This document shows, piece by piece, positions 27,315 to 41,035 of a stretch of DNA of 64,000 nucleotides. Location of the stretch: the NCBI RefSeq assembly GCF_002095395.1, contig NZ_MJEI01000091.1:1-64000 (forward strand), in the 5' to 3' direction. The stretch comes from Williamsia sp. 1135 (GTDB lineage: Bacteria > Actinomycetota > Actinomycetes > Mycobacteriales > Mycobacteriaceae). A program made the translations under genes and the position numbers. Below the pieces are notes generated by a model that searched no databases, had not been told where the DNA came from, and worked only from the letters and a program-made list of their open reading frames with translations. Positions within the stretch are counted from its first letter, which is position 1, and each line of letters opens with the position of its first letter.

Positions 27315-29687
27315 ATGCCGGCAAACAACGACAACAACGAGAACGACTTGCGCCACCTCGACATCGAACCGCCCAAGAATCATGCAGCAGGACCCACGGC
27401 TGTCGCAGTCTCGATGAAACGCGCACTGGGTCACATGGGACCGGTCCGCACCGCGAAGACGTTGCTGTCGCTGAATCAGGCCGAAGGATTCGACTGTATG
27501 AGCTGCGCCTGGCCGGACCCCGACCCAGGTCACCGGCACACTGCGGAGTTCTGCGAGAACGGCGCAAAAGCAGTCGCAGAAGAAGCGACGACCACCCGGG
27601 CCACACCGGAATTCTTCGCTGCTCACAGCATTGCCGAGCTGGACAGTCACACCGAGCACTGGCTCGGTCAACAGGGTCGCATCACCCACCCGATGATCAA
27701 ACGGCCCGGCGGGACCCACTACGAACCCATCGCATGGGATGACGCGTACGCACTCATCGCCGACGAACTGAACGGCCTCCAAACCCCCGATGAGGCCATC
27801 TTCTACACCTCGGGCCGGGCGTCGAACGAGTCTGCCTTCGTGTATCAACTGTTCGCCCGCGCGTTCGGCACCAACAACATGCCCGACTGTTCCAACATGT
27901 GCCACGAATCAACCTCGATCGCCCTGCAGGAATCGATCGGGATCGGTAAGGCGAGCGTCACCCTCGACGACGTCTACAACGCCGAACTGATCATCATCGC
28001 CGGGCAGAATCCGGGCACCAATCATCCCCGGATGCTGTCCGCCCTCGAGAAGGCGAAGCAGAACGGCGCGAAGATCATGGCCATCAACCCACTGCGCGAA
28101 GCCGGGTTGGTCAACTTCAAGAACCCGCAGACCCCGCGAGGCATGGTGGGACCGGGCACCGACCTGACCGACATGTTCCTGCCGATCGCGCTCAACGGCG
28201 ACCTCGCCCTGTTCCAGGCTCTCGGGTCATTGCTCGTCGAATGGGATGCCCTGGACCACGACTTCATCGATGCGCACACCACCGGTTTCGAGTCTTGGCG
28301 CGAGCACGTGCGGGCGGTGGACTGGGAAGTCGTGACAACGACAACCGGCCTGACCCGTCAGCAGATCACGGATGCGGCCGAGCTCCTGCGCAGTTCGAAA
28401 GCCACGGTCTTCTGTTGGGCGATGGGGTTGACCCAGCACCGCAACGCGGTCGCCACGATCAAAGAACTCACCAATCTCGCCTTTGCACAGGGCAATATCG
28501 GCAAGCCCGGCGCCGGGCTCTTCCCCATCCGTGGGCACTCCAACGTCCAAGGAGACCGCACCATGGGCATCTGGGAACGACCGCCTCAGCACTTCCTGGA
28601 TTCGGTACAGCGTGAGTTCGGCTTCGATCCGCCGCGCGAACACGGCCTCGACACAGTCGATTCCGTCCGCGCGTTGCGCGACGGCAAGGCCCACTTCTTC
28701 CTGGGTCTCGGCGGTAACTTCGCGCAGGCCACACCCGACAGCGACGTCACGTTCAAGGCTCTTCGCGGCGCCCGGATGACAGTGCAGATCTCGACGAAGA
28801 TCAACCGGGGTCACCTCGTGTGCGGGGACACCGCACTCATCCTGCCCACCCTCGGCCGCACGGAGAAAGACGTCCAGGCGGGCGGGCCACAATTCATCAC
28901 GGTCGAGGATTCGACGTGTTCGGTCCACGCCTCCCGGGGACCGCTGGCCCCGGCGAGCCCTCAGCTGCGATCGGAAGTCGCGATCGTCACCGGCATCGCG
29001 GAAGCCACCCTCGGCGACCGCCATGGCATCGACTGGGCCGCCATGCGCGGTGATTACCGCACCATCCGTGCCCACATCTCCCGCGTCGTGCCCGGCTGTG
29101 AGGGTTACGAGGTGAATGTGCGCAGACCGGGAGGCTTCATCCTCCCCCATCCACCTCGTGATACGCGAACCTTCGAGACAGACTCCGGCCGAGGAGAATT
29201 CGCCGTCTCGCCGATCGAGGTGTTGCAGGTTCCCGCCGGCCACCTGATCCTGCAGACACTCCGCAGTCACGATCAGTTCAACACCACGATCTACGGACTC
29301 AGCGATCGGTACCGCGGCATCGAGGGCGGCAGACGGGTGATCTTCATGCACCGAGAGGACATCTCGGCACTCGGTCACCGCGACGGCGACATCGTCGACA
29401 TCGTTTCGCGCTGGGACGATGACGACAACGTCCGGTGCGCACCGTCATTCCGCATCGTCGAATACGCGACACCGCGAGGGTGCGCTGCCGCCTACTACCC
29501 CGAGACCAACCCGCTGGTTCCGCTGGACTCCACCGCTCTCGACAGCAACTGTCCGACATCGAAATCGATCATCGTGTCCCTGGTTCCGGCAGGACAGGGA
29601 AATCCGGATACCGGCTCGCCTGATCAGGATTCGACCGGATCTGACTGGGATCACAGGTCTCATCCGCAGCCGCACCACCTGAGCTGA
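27315..29687 (+). CDS. FdhF/YdeP-family molybdopterin oxidoreductase
   Basis: A 790-residue bis-molybdopterin enzyme of the FdhF/YdeP family. The family hallmarks are 'GFDCMSCAWPDPDPGHRHTA' (Cys61, Cys64, Cys80 replacing the usual four-Cys Fe-S site) and 'NNMPDCSNMCHESTSIAL', where Cys196 is the likely molybdenum ligand. The body contains 'AGQNPGTNHPRMLSALEKAK' and 'TNLAFAQGNIGKPGAGLFPI'; the C-terminal molydopterin-dinucleotide-binding domain starts near 640. No Tat signal, so cytoplasmic. E. coli YdeP is linked to acid resistance; the true substrate is unknown and formate oxidation is not shown. It ends next to a convergent TetR gene, by one base. Confidence 0.92.
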   Translation: MPANNDNNENDLRHLDIEPPKNHAAGPTAVAVSMKRALGHMGPVRTAKTLLSLNQAEGFDCMSCAWPDPDPGHRHTAEFCENGAKAVAEEATTTRATPEFFAAHSIAELDSHTEHWLGQQGRITHPMIKRPGGTHYEPIAWDDAYALIADELNGLQTPDEAIFYTSGRASNESAFVYQLFARAFGTNNMPDCSNMCHESTSIALQESIGIGKASVTLDDVYNAELIIIAGQNPGTNHPRMLSALEKAKQNGAKIMAINPLREAGLVNFKNPQTPRGMVGPGTDLTDMFLPIALNGDLALFQALGSLLVEWDALDHDFIDAHTTGFESWREHVRAVDWEVVTTTTGLTRQQITDAAELLRSSKATVFCWAMGLTQHRNAVATIKELTNLAFAQGNIGKPGAGLFPIRGHSNVQGDRTMGIWERPPQHFLDSVQREFGFDPPREHGLDTVDSVRALRDGKAHFFLGLGGNFAQATPDSDVTFKALRGARMTVQISTKINRGHLVCGDTALILPTLGRTEKDVQAGGPQFITVEDSTCSVHASRGPLAPASPQLRSEVAIVTGIAEATLGDRHGIDWAAMRGDYRTIRAHISRVVPGCEGYEVNVRRPGGFILPHPPRDTRTFETDSGRGEFAVSPIEVLQVPAGHLILQTLRSHDQFNTTIYGLSDRYRGIEGGRRVIFMHREDISALGHRDGDIVDIVSRWDDDDNVRCAPSFRIVEYATPRGCAAAYYPETNPLVPLDSTALDSNCPTSKSIIVSLVPAGQGNPDTGSPDQDSTGSDWDHRSHPQPHHLS

Positions 29688-30338
29688 TCAGGCCGGACCG
29701 GTTGTCGAGAACGACGGCTCGAGATAGTTCACTATCGCGTTGGTGAAACCACGCCTGGCCAGGTCCAGGTCCGTGTACGTACCGAGCTGGCGCTCCGAGA
29801 CCATCCCCCGCATGGCGCCGGGTATGAACGCGGCGACCTCGGCGACTCGCTCCGGGTCGACATCCAGGCCACTGAACGCGCGGCGGCAGGTGTCGAGCCA
29901 CGCCTGCCGCCACGACTCGAACTCGGCTGCGGTCAGCGGGTACAGCCGTTCGAACTCCACGCGGTCTCGCGGCATCGCGGCTCGCAAGGTCTCGATGGCG
30001 CGAGAGTCTTTGCCGCTCAAGCCTTCATACAGATTGTCGACGATGGCGCTGACCCGGTCACGCAGCGACGCACTCGCCGGCGCGCTCGCCGGCAGATCGC
30101 CTCGACGCTCGGCGGTGTATTGCAGCACCGCTGCCCACAGACCGTCGATATCACCGAACTGATACTTGACCGTTCCCCAGGTGGCGCCGATCTCTTTGGC
30201 GATGCGGTTGCCCGACACAGCGCCGGGATCGCCAGAGGCCAGGGACCGTAGCGCGGCGTCGAGCATGCTGTCACGAGTTGCCATCCCTCGTTTGTTGCTG
30301 CGTCTGCCGGCAACCTCCGCTTCGGTCATCTCACCCAT
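29688..30338 (-). CDS. TetR-family transcriptional regulator
   Basis: A 216-residue repressor. The helix-turn-helix 'SGNRIAKEIGATWGTVKYQF' lies at about 42-61, followed by the typical 'GDIDGLWAAVLQYTAERRGD'. The C-terminal ligand domain is unassigned. It is divergent from the Rieske oxygenase and dehydrogenase genes 109 bases away, with an 11-bp inverted repeat between, so it most likely controls them and itself. ATG codons 1 and 4 are both possible. Confidence 0.9.
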   Translation of the reverse strand: MGEMTEAEVAGRRSNKRGMATRDSMLDAALRSLASGDPGAVSGNRIAKEIGATWGTVKYQFGDIDGLWAAVLQYTAERRGDLPASAPASASLRDRVSAIVDNLYEGLSGKDSRAIETLRAAMPRDRVEFERLYPLTAAEFESWRQAWLDTCRRAFSGLDVDPERVAEVAAFIPGAMRGMVSERQLGTYTDLDLARRGFTNAIVNYLEPSFSTTGPA

Positions 30339-30374
30339 ACTAACGACGCCTCATCGCGCACATCCAGATTCATA

Positions 30375-30409
30375 GAACCCTCTTCCAAACATTCGCAGAG
30401 GGGTCTATC
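30375..30409. promoter_or_regulatory. Inverted repeat in the tetR/Rieske divergent promoter
   Basis: TAGAACCCTCT (30375-30385) and AGAGGGGTCTA (30399-30409) are complementary in 10 of 11 positions, spaced by 13 bases. It lies midway between the two divergent starts, the expected place for an operator of the TetR protein. Confidence 0.5.
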
Positions 30410-30447: not shown

Positions 30448-31455
30448 ATGGCGAAAACACCGCTGCCCATGAAGCCGACGGGCTGGTTTCAGGTGGCGTG
30501 GTCGGCGGAGATCCGGGCTGGTGACGTTCATCGGATGACGTATTTCAGCACTGAGATGATCGCCTGGAGATCAGCATCGGGCCAGGTCACGGTCATGGAT
30601 GCCTACTGCGAACATCTGGGTGCGCATCTCGGCCACGGAGGCACCGTCGACGGCGAGATCCTGCGGTGCCCGTTCCATGGCTGGGAGTGGGACAACCAGG
30701 GACGAAACGTGTGCATTCCTTACGAAAAGCGCCCTAACAAGGGCAGGCGGATCCGAACCTACCCGGTCACCGAGCACAGCGAATCAGTGTTCATCTGGTT
30801 CGACGAGAACGGTCGTGCACCGTATTTCGAGGTCGCCGATGTCTTGTCGGGGTTCGACGACGGCAGGAGCGCCGCCGACTACTAACCCGCTTACGGCCAC
30901 AGCACATTGTTCGAGACCGGGCTGGAGATCCATCCGCAGTACCTGATGGAGAACGGGGTGGACTTCGCGCACTTCAAATACGTGCACAACACCCCACTGG
31001 TGCCCGAGTTCACCCGTCACGACTTCGACGCCCCGGTGTCCTATGTCGATTTCACCATCGCGTTCGACGATGTGCCTGCCGACGAGATCAACAGTGGAGT
31101 GCAGGCGATCAACAGCGGAATCGGGGTGGCAGGCACCAAGAGCTGGGGAATGATCGACAATCGCACGCTCACCTCGGTCACCCCGATCGACGACGCGACC
31201 TCGGACATCCGGTTCACCGTCTGGATCGGACGCACCCCCGGCGACGACAACGACGGACCCACTTCTCGTGCGCTGCGCAATGCTCGCGGCGTGATCGAAC
31301 AGTTCCAGAACGACATCGGAATCTGGAAGTACCAGCGCTACTCCGACCCACCCGCCCTCTCTCCCTCGGAGTTCAAAGGCTTCACCGCCATCACAAAGTG
31401 GGCCACCCAGTTCTATCCCGCCGACTTCGACCCGAAGGCAGCAACCGCTCGCTGA
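30448..31455 (+). pseudogene. Rieske non-haem iron oxygenase (KshA-like) with an in-frame stop
   Basis: One reading frame of 336 codons, interrupted only by TAA at 30883-30885. The first part carries the Rieske cluster motif ('YCEHLGAHLGHGG' and 'CPFHGWEWDNQG'). The part after the stop carries the mononuclear iron triad 'ENGVDFAHFKYVH' (Asp, His, His). The frame is the same on both sides: 'GRSAADY-stop-PAYG'. A Tyr or similar residue stands there in relatives, and TAC/TAT to TAA is one base change. The enzyme resembles 3-ketosteroid-9-alpha-hydroxylase oxygenases (KshA). It needs a reductase partner not found here. Either a recent pseudogene, a sequence error, or read-through; the last is least likely. 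Confidence 0.8.
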
Positions 31456-31486
31456 CCATCCACCCCCTCGCCCGAAAGGCCACTTC

Positions 31487-32575
31487 ATGAGCACGCCTGA
31501 GCACCCCCCGATTCGGATCTTCCAGGTCGCGACCGGCAACGTGGGAACCGAGATGATCAAGCGAATCGGCGCTCACCGAGATCTCGAACTCATCGGATTG
31601 CACTGATACACACCGGAGAAGATCGGCCGCGACGCAGGTGAAATCGCCGGACTCGACCCCATCGGCGTGACGGCCACCGGGACCGTCGAGGAAATCATCG
31701 CCGCACACCCCGATGTCGTGACGTTCCACGGCGTATTTCCCGACGCCGCCGACGAGAAGGTGCTCGAAGCGGGGATCAACATCGTCACCACCGCCGACTT
31801 CATCACCGGTCACCACCGCGACGAGAATCATCCGCACGTGTCGGGCAAGAAGGTCACCGAGGTGCTCGAGGCAGCGTGTCAGCGGGGCGGATCGACGTTC
31901 TACGGCACCGGCATGAATCCCGGTGTCAACCAAATTCTCGGCGTGGTGTGCTCGGCCGATGTCGCGGAGATCGAGAACATCATCACCCTCGAATCGGTCG
32001 ACGTGTCCTGCCACCACTCCAAGGACACCTGGATCGAGGTCGGCTACGGTTTGCCCGTCGACGATCCGAGTATTCCGGACAAACTCGAGAAGTACACCCG
32101 GGTCTTCGGCGACAGCGTGCTCCTGATGGCTGACTGCTTCGGCCTCGAACTCGACGAGGTGACGTTCAGCTATGAACTCGGCGCGTGCACCAAGGACGTC
32201 GATCTGGGCTGGTATCAGCTGCCCAAGGGATCACTCGGCGGCAACTACATCAAGTACCAGGGCATGGTCGACGGCGTTCCCAGGATCGAGACCCATCTGG
32301 AATGGCAGATGACTCCACACACCACACCCAACTGGGACATCAAGGGCTGCTACATCACTCAGATCCAAGGCGACCCGTGCATCTACAACAAGCACATGAT
32401 CTTTCCCAAGCGCGGCGTTGATCTGTCCGATCCCGCCAACTTCGCCTCCATCGGCATGACCGTCACCGGATTGCCCGCTCTCAACTCGATCCGCAGCGTC
32501 GTCGCGGCGCGGCCGGGCATCATCACCAGTGCCGACCTCCCGCTGAGAGGATTCGCCGGCCGCTTCAAGAAATAG
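31487..32575 (+). pseudogene. Dihydrodipicolinate-reductase-like dehydrogenase with an in-frame stop
   Basis: A frame of 363 codons with a single TGA at 31604-31606, codon 40, after 'DLELIGLH'. The Rossmann start 'RIFQVATGNVGTEMIKRIG' precedes the stop; the rest ('SVDVSCHHSKDTWIEVGYG', 'GVPRIETHLEWQMTPHTTP') is the body of the family of NAD(P)-dependent enzymes annotated as dihydrodipicolinate reductase-like or diaminopentanoate dehydrogenase-like. A Cys or Trp codon (TGC, TGT, TGG) to TGA would explain it. An internal start would lack the nucleotide-binding site. It follows the Rieske gene by 31 bases in one operon. Its neighbour is broken the same way. Confidence 0.78.
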
Positions 32576-39012: not shown

Positions 39013-40850
39013 TCATTCTGCGAGGTCGACGACACCAGGGCCTGCAGGCGATGAATACAGATCGACAATGGTCTGCTCGTACTTGCTCGCGATCGGCTTG
39101 CGCCGCAGCTTCATCGTCGGGGTCAACTCGACTCCTCCTGGATCCCACGCCGACGGAACGATGACGAATCGCTTGACCTGCTCGACCCGGGACAGCTTCG
39201 TGTTGCCCGCCTTCACCGACAACGTCACCTCCTCGACGATCGCCGGATTGCGTGCAAGGTCGGCGATCTGGGCCTCCGGGATACCAAGCATCTTGGCGCG
39301 AAGCGCGGCGACATCGGGATCGAGCACGATCAGCGCGGTGATGTACGGCTTGTCGTCGCCGATCGCCACCACCTGACTGACCAGCGACGAGTTCGCCTTC
39401 ATCGCGTTCTCGATGGTGCTCGGAGCCATGTTCTTTCCCGACTCGTTGATGATCAGCTCCTTCTTCCGATCAACGATCGTCAGATTGCCCTCGGCATCGA
39501 TGGTGCCGACATCGCCCGTCGCGAACCAGCCGTCGGAGTCGATCGCCTCCGAGGTCTTGTCCGGTTTGTTGCGGTATCCGCGCATGATGATCGGCGCCCG
39601 CACGAGCACTTCCCCATCCTCGGCCAGCTTGATCTCGACACCCTCTACGGGTTTGCCGACGGTGCCCACCTTCAGATTGTCCACGGTGGTCTTCGTCGCC
39701 GCGCCCGTGGTCTCACTCAGACCCCACACCTCGATGACCGGAATGCCCAGTCCCACAAAGAACTCGATGACCTCCGCCGGAATCGACGCAGCGCCCGAGA
39801 TCGCCAACTTCAGCTCGTCGAGTCCCAGCGCGGCGCGCACCTTCGACAGCACGAGCGAGTCCGCCAACTGATACTGCACCTGTAGAGCCCGGCCCCGTGG
39901 TCGACCCGACAGGTCTGCCCTGGCAGCACGCGCGGCCACGTCGAGCGCCCATGCGGCGAGCTTCGACTTGACCGGGCTTGTCTCCTCTCCTACCTTCGCC
40001 TCGATGCCGGCCTTGATCTTCTGCCAGACCCTGGGAACGCCGAAGAACACCGTCGGCCGCACATCAGGGAGGGCCGCGGCAAACTCGCGAGGATCGGAAA
40101 CCGACGTGATCTGTATGCCCCGCAACTGATTTGCACTGTGCGAGGAAACCCGATCCGCGATGTGTGCGGCAGGTAGGTACGAGATGATCCGATCGTCGAA
40201 GCCGGTGTCGAGTTCGGCGGACACCGACTCGGCGGCCGCGATCACGTTGCGGTGGGTGATCTCCACCCCCTTCGGCGGCCCGGTCGTCCCGGATGTGTAG
40301 ATCAACGTGACGAGGTCGTCGGGTTCCACCGCCCGCCAGGAGGCCTGAAAGTCGAACTCGGTGTCCGGATCGGCCTCGACGTCGCGCAGTTCGATGGCGC
40401 CCTCGGCGGGACCGTCGACGGTGATGATGTGCTCGAGGGCGGCACCGGATTCCCGGATCGCGGGCATGAAGACCTGCTCGGTCACGACGACCCGGTTGGC
40501 GGCGTCACCGAAGAGATATGCGAGCTGCTCCGGTGCACTGGTGTTGTACACGGAGAACGGGATGGCACCGAGATGCACGATCGCGGTGTCCACGAGGTGG
40601 AACTCGGGCCGATTCGTCAACATCAGGCCGACGGTGTCGCCGCGTTTCACACCGAGGGTCACCAGCCCCAGCGCGATCGATTCCACTCGCGTGGCGTACT
40701 CACGCCACGTGATCTCCTGAATACCCCAGGGGTACGCAACGCGACGCGGTCCGGATGCATCTTTGCGGTGTGCTGAAACGCTTCTGCCGTGGTGTGGACC
40801 GCCGCTCCGGAAGCGTGGTGAAAGACGGTGTCTGCGGTATTCGGGTTCAT
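39013..40850 (-). pseudogene. Long-chain acyl-CoA synthetase (fadD-like), frameshifted near the N-terminus
   Basis: The first 42 or so codons ('MNPNTADTVFHHASGAAVHT' to 'PDRVALRTPG') and the remaining 567 lie in different frames. The shift is at a GGGG run (plus-strand CCCC at 40724-40727). One more G would read 'TPGGIQEITWREYATRVESI', matching the intact paralogue 0.9 kb away. The rest is a full AMP-forming synthetase: 'LIYTSGTTGPPKGVEITHRN', 'GYRNKPDKTSEAIDSDGWFA', 'TGDVGTIDAEGNLTIVDRKK'. AGGAG precedes the ATG at 40850. A one-base homopolymer change suggests a sequencing error or a young pseudogene. If intact, it activates fatty acids with ATP and CoA. Confidence 0.85.
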
Positions 40851-41035
40851 CGGTGAACTCCTGACAGATGATGGCGACAAGTCTCGATGCGGCACGCCGC
40901 GAGCAACGTTGAAATCGGACATGCCTGTACTCGAGAACCTATCCCCGAGGACACCCCTCGCGGAGCAGATTCGCCGGGGTTGTTCGGTGGATCCTGATAT
41001 CTTTCAGACCAATAATTTCCACCGAAAGTGGCCCC

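Follow-up and report, generated by a model that had tools for sequence, protein, structure and literature searches.

Two in-frame stop codons in a conserved oxygenase–dehydrogenase gene pair of Williamsia: probable recent inactivation of a small enzyme operon

Two neighbouring genes of Williamsia sp. 1135, one for a Rieske-type oxygenase and one for a dehydrogenase-like protein, are each interrupted by a single in-frame stop codon. Has a pathway unit been lost, are the stops read by the translation machinery, or is the sequence wrong? All three options had been raised by an initial annotation, and they are compared here using homologous loci, the translation components of the genome and the background of gene disruption. 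The source genome is a draft assembly of 5.98 Mb in 107 contigs; the window, i.e. the whole stretch of 64,000 bases that was analysed, corresponds to bases 1-64000 of contig C17. The features of the locus are as follows.

29688..30338, minus strand: TetR-family regulator gene, intact and divergent from the operon; 216-codon frame, 95% identity to W. soli
30372..30408, no strand: imperfect palindrome between regulator and oxygenase, putative operator; arms in agreement at 11 of 12 positions and for the most part retained in three relatives
30448..31455, plus strand: Rieske-type oxygenase gene (KshA-like), interrupted; Rieske domain before the stop, KshA_C after it; 335 codons
30883..30885, plus strand: in-frame TAA, oxygenase codon 146; Tyr in 76, Phe in 3 and Trp in 1 of 80 homologues
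31330..31332, plus strand: H295Y, private change of an otherwise invariant oxygenase residue
31393..31395, plus strand: R316T, private change of an otherwise invariant oxygenase residue
31487..32575, plus strand: NAD(P)-dependent dehydrogenase-like gene (dihydrodipicolinate reductase / diaminopentanoate dehydrogenase superfamily), interrupted
31604..31606, plus strand: in-frame TGA, dehydrogenase codon 40; Cys in 80 of 80 homologues
31745..31753, plus strand: clustered private change of three dehydrogenase residues with the loss of one codon (residues 87-89)

The interrupted pair and its homologues

Both stops lie where they had been described. Counted from the start of its frame at 30448, the TAA is codon 146, and the rest of this frame is open up to its natural stop (335 residues). 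The TGA is codon 40 of the frame that starts with the ATG at 31487, which is likewise open to its natural stop (362 residues). DNA alignment with W. soli, W. sp. 1138 and W. limnetica crosses both stops without a frameshift, in line with the earlier view that none is needed, and each stop is a single-base difference from the codon of these three close relatives.

A scan of contigs yielded 338 stretches encoding a relative of the dehydrogenase, and the comparisons use the best 80 of these 338. In all of the best 80 loci an oxygenase match lies directly upstream of the dehydrogenase on the same strand, with a gap of at most 101 bases; the pair is a conserved unit with putative co-transcription. 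A TetR homologue is found further upstream on the opposite strand in 65 loci and was not found there in the other 15, one of which (L079) is cut by the contig end. The earlier proposal to align the residue facing each stop gives a clear answer: tyrosine predominates in the oxygenase column (76 of 80, with Phe 3 and Trp 1) and cysteine is invariant in the dehydrogenase column. The latter stop comes early, at 11% of the gene, yet this part of the gene is present and conserved in every one of the 80 homologues. None of these loci has an in-frame stop in either gene; stops common to other strains had been named as a sign of recoding, and neither of the two recurs among the 80. Within the genus, the best matches are uninterrupted in all eight other Williamsia genomes (67-97% identity for the oxygenase, 82-98% for the dehydrogenase). 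The source genome contains no close second copy, the next-best full-length matches reaching 29% (oxygenase) and 30% (dehydrogenase) identity, and compensation by a close paralogue was rejected on this ground. Our literature search returned no paper linking Rieske, dihydrodipicolinate reductase, TetR and operon in Mycobacterium.

The oxygenase retains a Rieske domain before the stop (67.5 bits, Pfam cut-off 20.3) and a KshA_C domain after it (128.2 bits, cut-off 23.3). Its best solved relatives are the oxygenases of 3-ketosteroid 9alpha-hydroxylases (4qdc, E = 2.8e-28; 2zyl). In the alignment to 4qdc, the Cys-His motifs (54-56, 74-77) precede the stop and the region of H175, H180 and D289 follows it; we take the former to be the iron-sulphur ligands and the latter three residues to be the iron ligands. 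The protein shares both domains with KshA, but it is distant (102 bits over 335 residues), has a dehydrogenase gene as partner and is interrupted. It is of KshA type by its domains and is not assigned as KshA; 3-ketosteroid 9alpha-hydroxylation would be no more than a candidate activity.

For the dehydrogenase, solved relatives comprise dihydrodipicolinate-reductase-like and amine dehydrogenase entries (6g1m, 7r09). The part after the stop contains DAP_DH_C (PF19328) at 24.3 bits, just over the Pfam cut-off of 23.3. Superfamily, overall length and C-terminal domain are common to this protein and to the 2,4-diaminopentanoate dehydrogenases and native amine dehydrogenases. However, the 2,4-diaminopentanoate dehydrogenase model NF040740, scored on the residues after the stop only, gives 55.7 bits, far under its curated cut-off of 400, and the equivalog assignment was rejected. 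According to the accessible part of a study of native amine dehydrogenases, diaminopentanoate is not to be expected as the substrate of every protein with a DAP_DH_C-type domain (PMC11164908).

How far has constraint on the two genes changed? Among oxygenase columns invariant in 80 of 80 homologues, two of 117 carry private changes, H295Y and R316T; in the dehydrogenase there are four of 191, namely the stop and residues 87-89. The change at 87-89 and the accompanying one-codon loss are probably one event, and the site of this cluster, 31745-31753, shows no variation across the 80 homologues. It was not copied from elsewhere in the window, where the 16-base sequence around it is unique. Such private changes number zero in both genes in each of the three nearest relatives, and 1, 2, 2 and 5 in total in four more distant ones (L064, L065, L069 and L104). 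The initial annotation had described motifs as preserved on both sides of each stop; this is borne out by the Rieske and KshA_C domains but not by H295Y, R316T and residues 87-89. These alterations hint at relaxed constraint as far as the sequences go.

Substitution counts speak rather against relaxed selection. The two genes have a nonsynonymous to synonymous count of 10:28 on the window branch. Two other branches have 20:107 (p = 0.15), and 46 further genes of the window contig have 239:868 (p = 0.55); this last baseline takes in the frame-changed acyl-CoA synthetase described below and leaves out three early-stop genes and one duplicate mapping. Four-way counts give 10:19 versus 9:52 (p = 0.051, or 0.14 with the 87-89 cluster counted once). 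A strong relaxation of selection is not upheld by these counts; since the ratio is not significantly raised, any decay would be young.

The regulator gene is intact, as had been stated, with a TetR_N score of 22.2 bits, slightly below the Pfam cut-off of 24. The claim of an intact operator holds in so far as the palindrome is present; compared with each of the three relatives its left arm has one change and its right arm none. Its role as an operator is our inference. The oxygenase–dehydrogenase operon is probably TetR-controlled. Next to the TetR gene lies an intact gene for an FdhF/YdeP-family molybdopterin oxidoreductase (27315-29687, plus strand; 922 bits, cut-off 582). The three nearest Williamsia also have it beside the operon; in the other 77 loci it was not found within flanks of up to 4 kb.

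Recoding, read-through and restart

Where homologues have an invariant cysteine, a TGA classically points to selenocysteine, and this reading was tested because the dehydrogenase TGA stands at such a position. SelA was detected in none of the nine Williamsia genomes, with the controls E. coli and M. jannaschii positive. No match to the tRNA-Sec model reached the cut-off in these nine genomes (5 of 14 control genomes did), and the four weak matches in the source genome fall on ordinary tRNAs. Folding of the 61 bases that begin with the TGA was no better than that of shuffled versions (z = +0.87), and no SECIS-like hairpin stands out. Selenocysteine was rejected on these three results as highly improbable, and it would in any case leave the upstream TAA of the oxygenase without explanation. 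No suppressor tRNA was found either, none of the 46 tRNA matches of the draft genome, all read with ARAGORN, having a stop-codon anticodon. As neither selenocysteine components nor a suppressor were found, and no relative has the stops, the read-through or recoding offered as one option by the initial annotation is not supported.

The stops might instead be tolerated: low-level read-through or a mixed population would leave some full-length enzyme, and the operon would be turned down rather than lost. The accessible part of a survey of bacterial in-frame stops describes cases in which dN/dS is lower than 1 and interprets them as frequent read-through or as polymorphism of short duration (PMC7918605). 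In Williamsia both frames are otherwise open and the nonsynonymous ratio is not raised, but an open frame is equally expected of a very young pseudogene. Read-through would furthermore have to operate on two different stop codons, in genes where residues invariant elsewhere are altered, and the absence of both the suppressor anticodon and any stop common to relatives weighs against it. We find tolerance very improbable. The same low standing is given to a more elaborate version, in which the stops would keep an operon that is a burden in the absence of its substrate at low but reversible expression, and the pathway would stay recoverable through traces of read-through or a mixed population. 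Even less credible is a restart of translation after each stop, giving two polypeptides per gene whose halves assemble. Mechanical reading frames do resume at TTG 30907 and GTG 31667, but no split gene occurs among the 80 homologues, a ribosome-binding site before TTG 30907 was not seen by eye, and the dehydrogenase from 31667 would lack the nucleotide-binding loop, its first piece being 39 residues long.

Background disruption and sequence error

The remaining and main rival is that sequencing or assembly introduced one or both stops by mistake and that the operon is intact in the living strain. The draft state of the genome, with its 107 contigs, makes this conceivable, and the frequency of disrupted genes elsewhere bears directly on it. 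For the window contig, the background comes from 52 mapped W. soli genes whose reading was confirmed in W. sp. 1138. Nine of them drew a flag: the oxygenase and the dehydrogenase themselves, an acyl-CoA synthetase that lacks one base close to its start, and six affected at the start of the frame. These six, with the stop or frame change within the first 18% of the gene where measured, are judged by position to reflect over-long start calls in W. soli. The oxygenase and the dehydrogenase are the only ones among the 52 with clear mid-gene stops, and two randomly placed stops would fall in neighbouring genes with a probability of about 0.04. What sets these stops apart is their adjacency in one operon; the assembly is not unusually broken.

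The acyl-CoA synthetase (AMP-binding; 39016-40901, minus strand) has lost one base about 40 codons from its start. None of W. soli, W. sp. 1138 and W. limnetica has this loss, and the gene is either a third disrupted gene of the window or a sequence error.

In genome-wide scans of four families, stops turned up in one of the 101 adh_short matches and two of the 80 for MFS_1, and in none of the 115 for ABC_tran or the 79 for AMP-binding. Of the two MFS_1 cases, one (contig C19) is the natural end of its gene and the other belongs to a match below the cut-off. The adh_short case is genuine: a short-chain dehydrogenase gene (L191 1972-2712, minus strand; contig C82:31971-32711) has a lone in-frame TAG at codon 49 of 247; close orthologues (78-95%) are uninterrupted in six of the eight other Williamsia genomes, the other two having only distant matches. 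In addition, adh_short and AMP-binding matches at L192 (C107:18662-19218) and C82:12782-13872 are split over two frames, possibly by frameshifts.

On two contigs, raw rows with in-frame stops number 16 in the source genome (204 genes), 12 in W. soli (207) and 10 in W. sp. 1138 (204). Sorting by position covered the rows of the source genome only; besides the oxygenase and the dehydrogenase, stops beyond 18% of gene length were confined there to two short frames on contig C58, which run antisense to longer frames and were set aside as spurious. Frameshift-like genes amount to 6 of 201, 6 of 206 and 3 of 204 in the same order of genomes.

Both stops of the operon and the stop of the C82 short-chain dehydrogenase belong to the substitution class C:G to A:T. 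Judged by the fourfold-site spectrum of the window, the chance of this class per nonsense event is 0.098, 0.13 and 0.14, with a product of about 0.002 for a pattern that was noticed after the fact and comprises three cases. Among private nonsynonymous changes in 45 contig genes the class makes up 25 of 132; two relatives show 25 of 209 and 25 of 290. The signature of oxidative damage or error to which these 45 genes hinted is not upheld over about 200 genes (70/524 versus 263/2220, p = 0.33; synonymous changes, p = 0.97). The shared class of the stops could hint at a damage-type error, but it is no proof of one.

An error thus draws on the draft state, the common class of all three lone stops examined, the 45-gene share and the one-base loss in the acyl-CoA synthetase. 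Against it stand the disappearance of the class excess in the larger set, frameshift-like genes as frequent in relatives and raw stop rows of similar number; moreover, errors would not be expected to prefer two neighbours of one operon. The clustered errors that the initial annotation had also considered become less likely through the lack of an excess over the two other drafts, in frameshift-like genes as in C:G to A:T changes, yet they keep a small share of the probability: we hold an error to be unlikely, and still the most serious competitor.

Probable young decay of a two-gene operon

A recent, ordinary inactivation of a conserved two-gene enzyme operon, in other words a young decayed operon, is probably what the locus records. 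The recent loss of a pathway unit, as the initial annotation had suggested, is the best fit because the stops are unique among the compared genomes, the pair is conserved and a close paralogue is absent.

Intact relatives pair the gene of a Rieske monooxygenase-like enzyme with that of an NAD(P)-dependent dehydrogenase, mostly next to a divergent TetR-type gene, and the two enzymes probably serve one pathway. In the lineage of this strain each gene has received one nonsense substitution. The oxygenase product would end after the iron-sulphur domain, without the catalytic iron region, and that of the dehydrogenase after 39 residues, with little beyond the nucleotide-binding loop. With products truncated to this extent, both enzyme activities have probably been lost, to judge from the reading frames. 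Once the first gene was dead, whichever of the two it was, selection on its partner may have been relaxed, and this would account for both stops falling in one operon with the adjoining genes intact.

Operon inactivation of this kind is already known. In Shigella, according to the available portion of one report, decayed genes are concentrated in operons, the proposal being that selection on the remaining genes weakens once one is lost (PMC3218036). The two situations have in common that several genes of one operon are inactivated, that neighbours are intact and that relaxed selection on partners is proposed, again as far as that portion of the Shigella report goes. Williamsia differs in that only two genes are concerned, about 200 genes give no sign of general decay, and the relaxation is not significant.

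The loss of this operon opens no long-standing question. It does illustrate that a TGA at the place of an invariant cysteine can mimic a selenoprotein until the selenocysteine machinery is checked, and for annotation it means that the pathway should not be credited to this Williamsia strain without scrutiny of the genes. For the biology of the strain, the locus would be an early snapshot of operon loss, with two nonsense changes in one enzyme unit and with the adjoining genes and the regulator intact.
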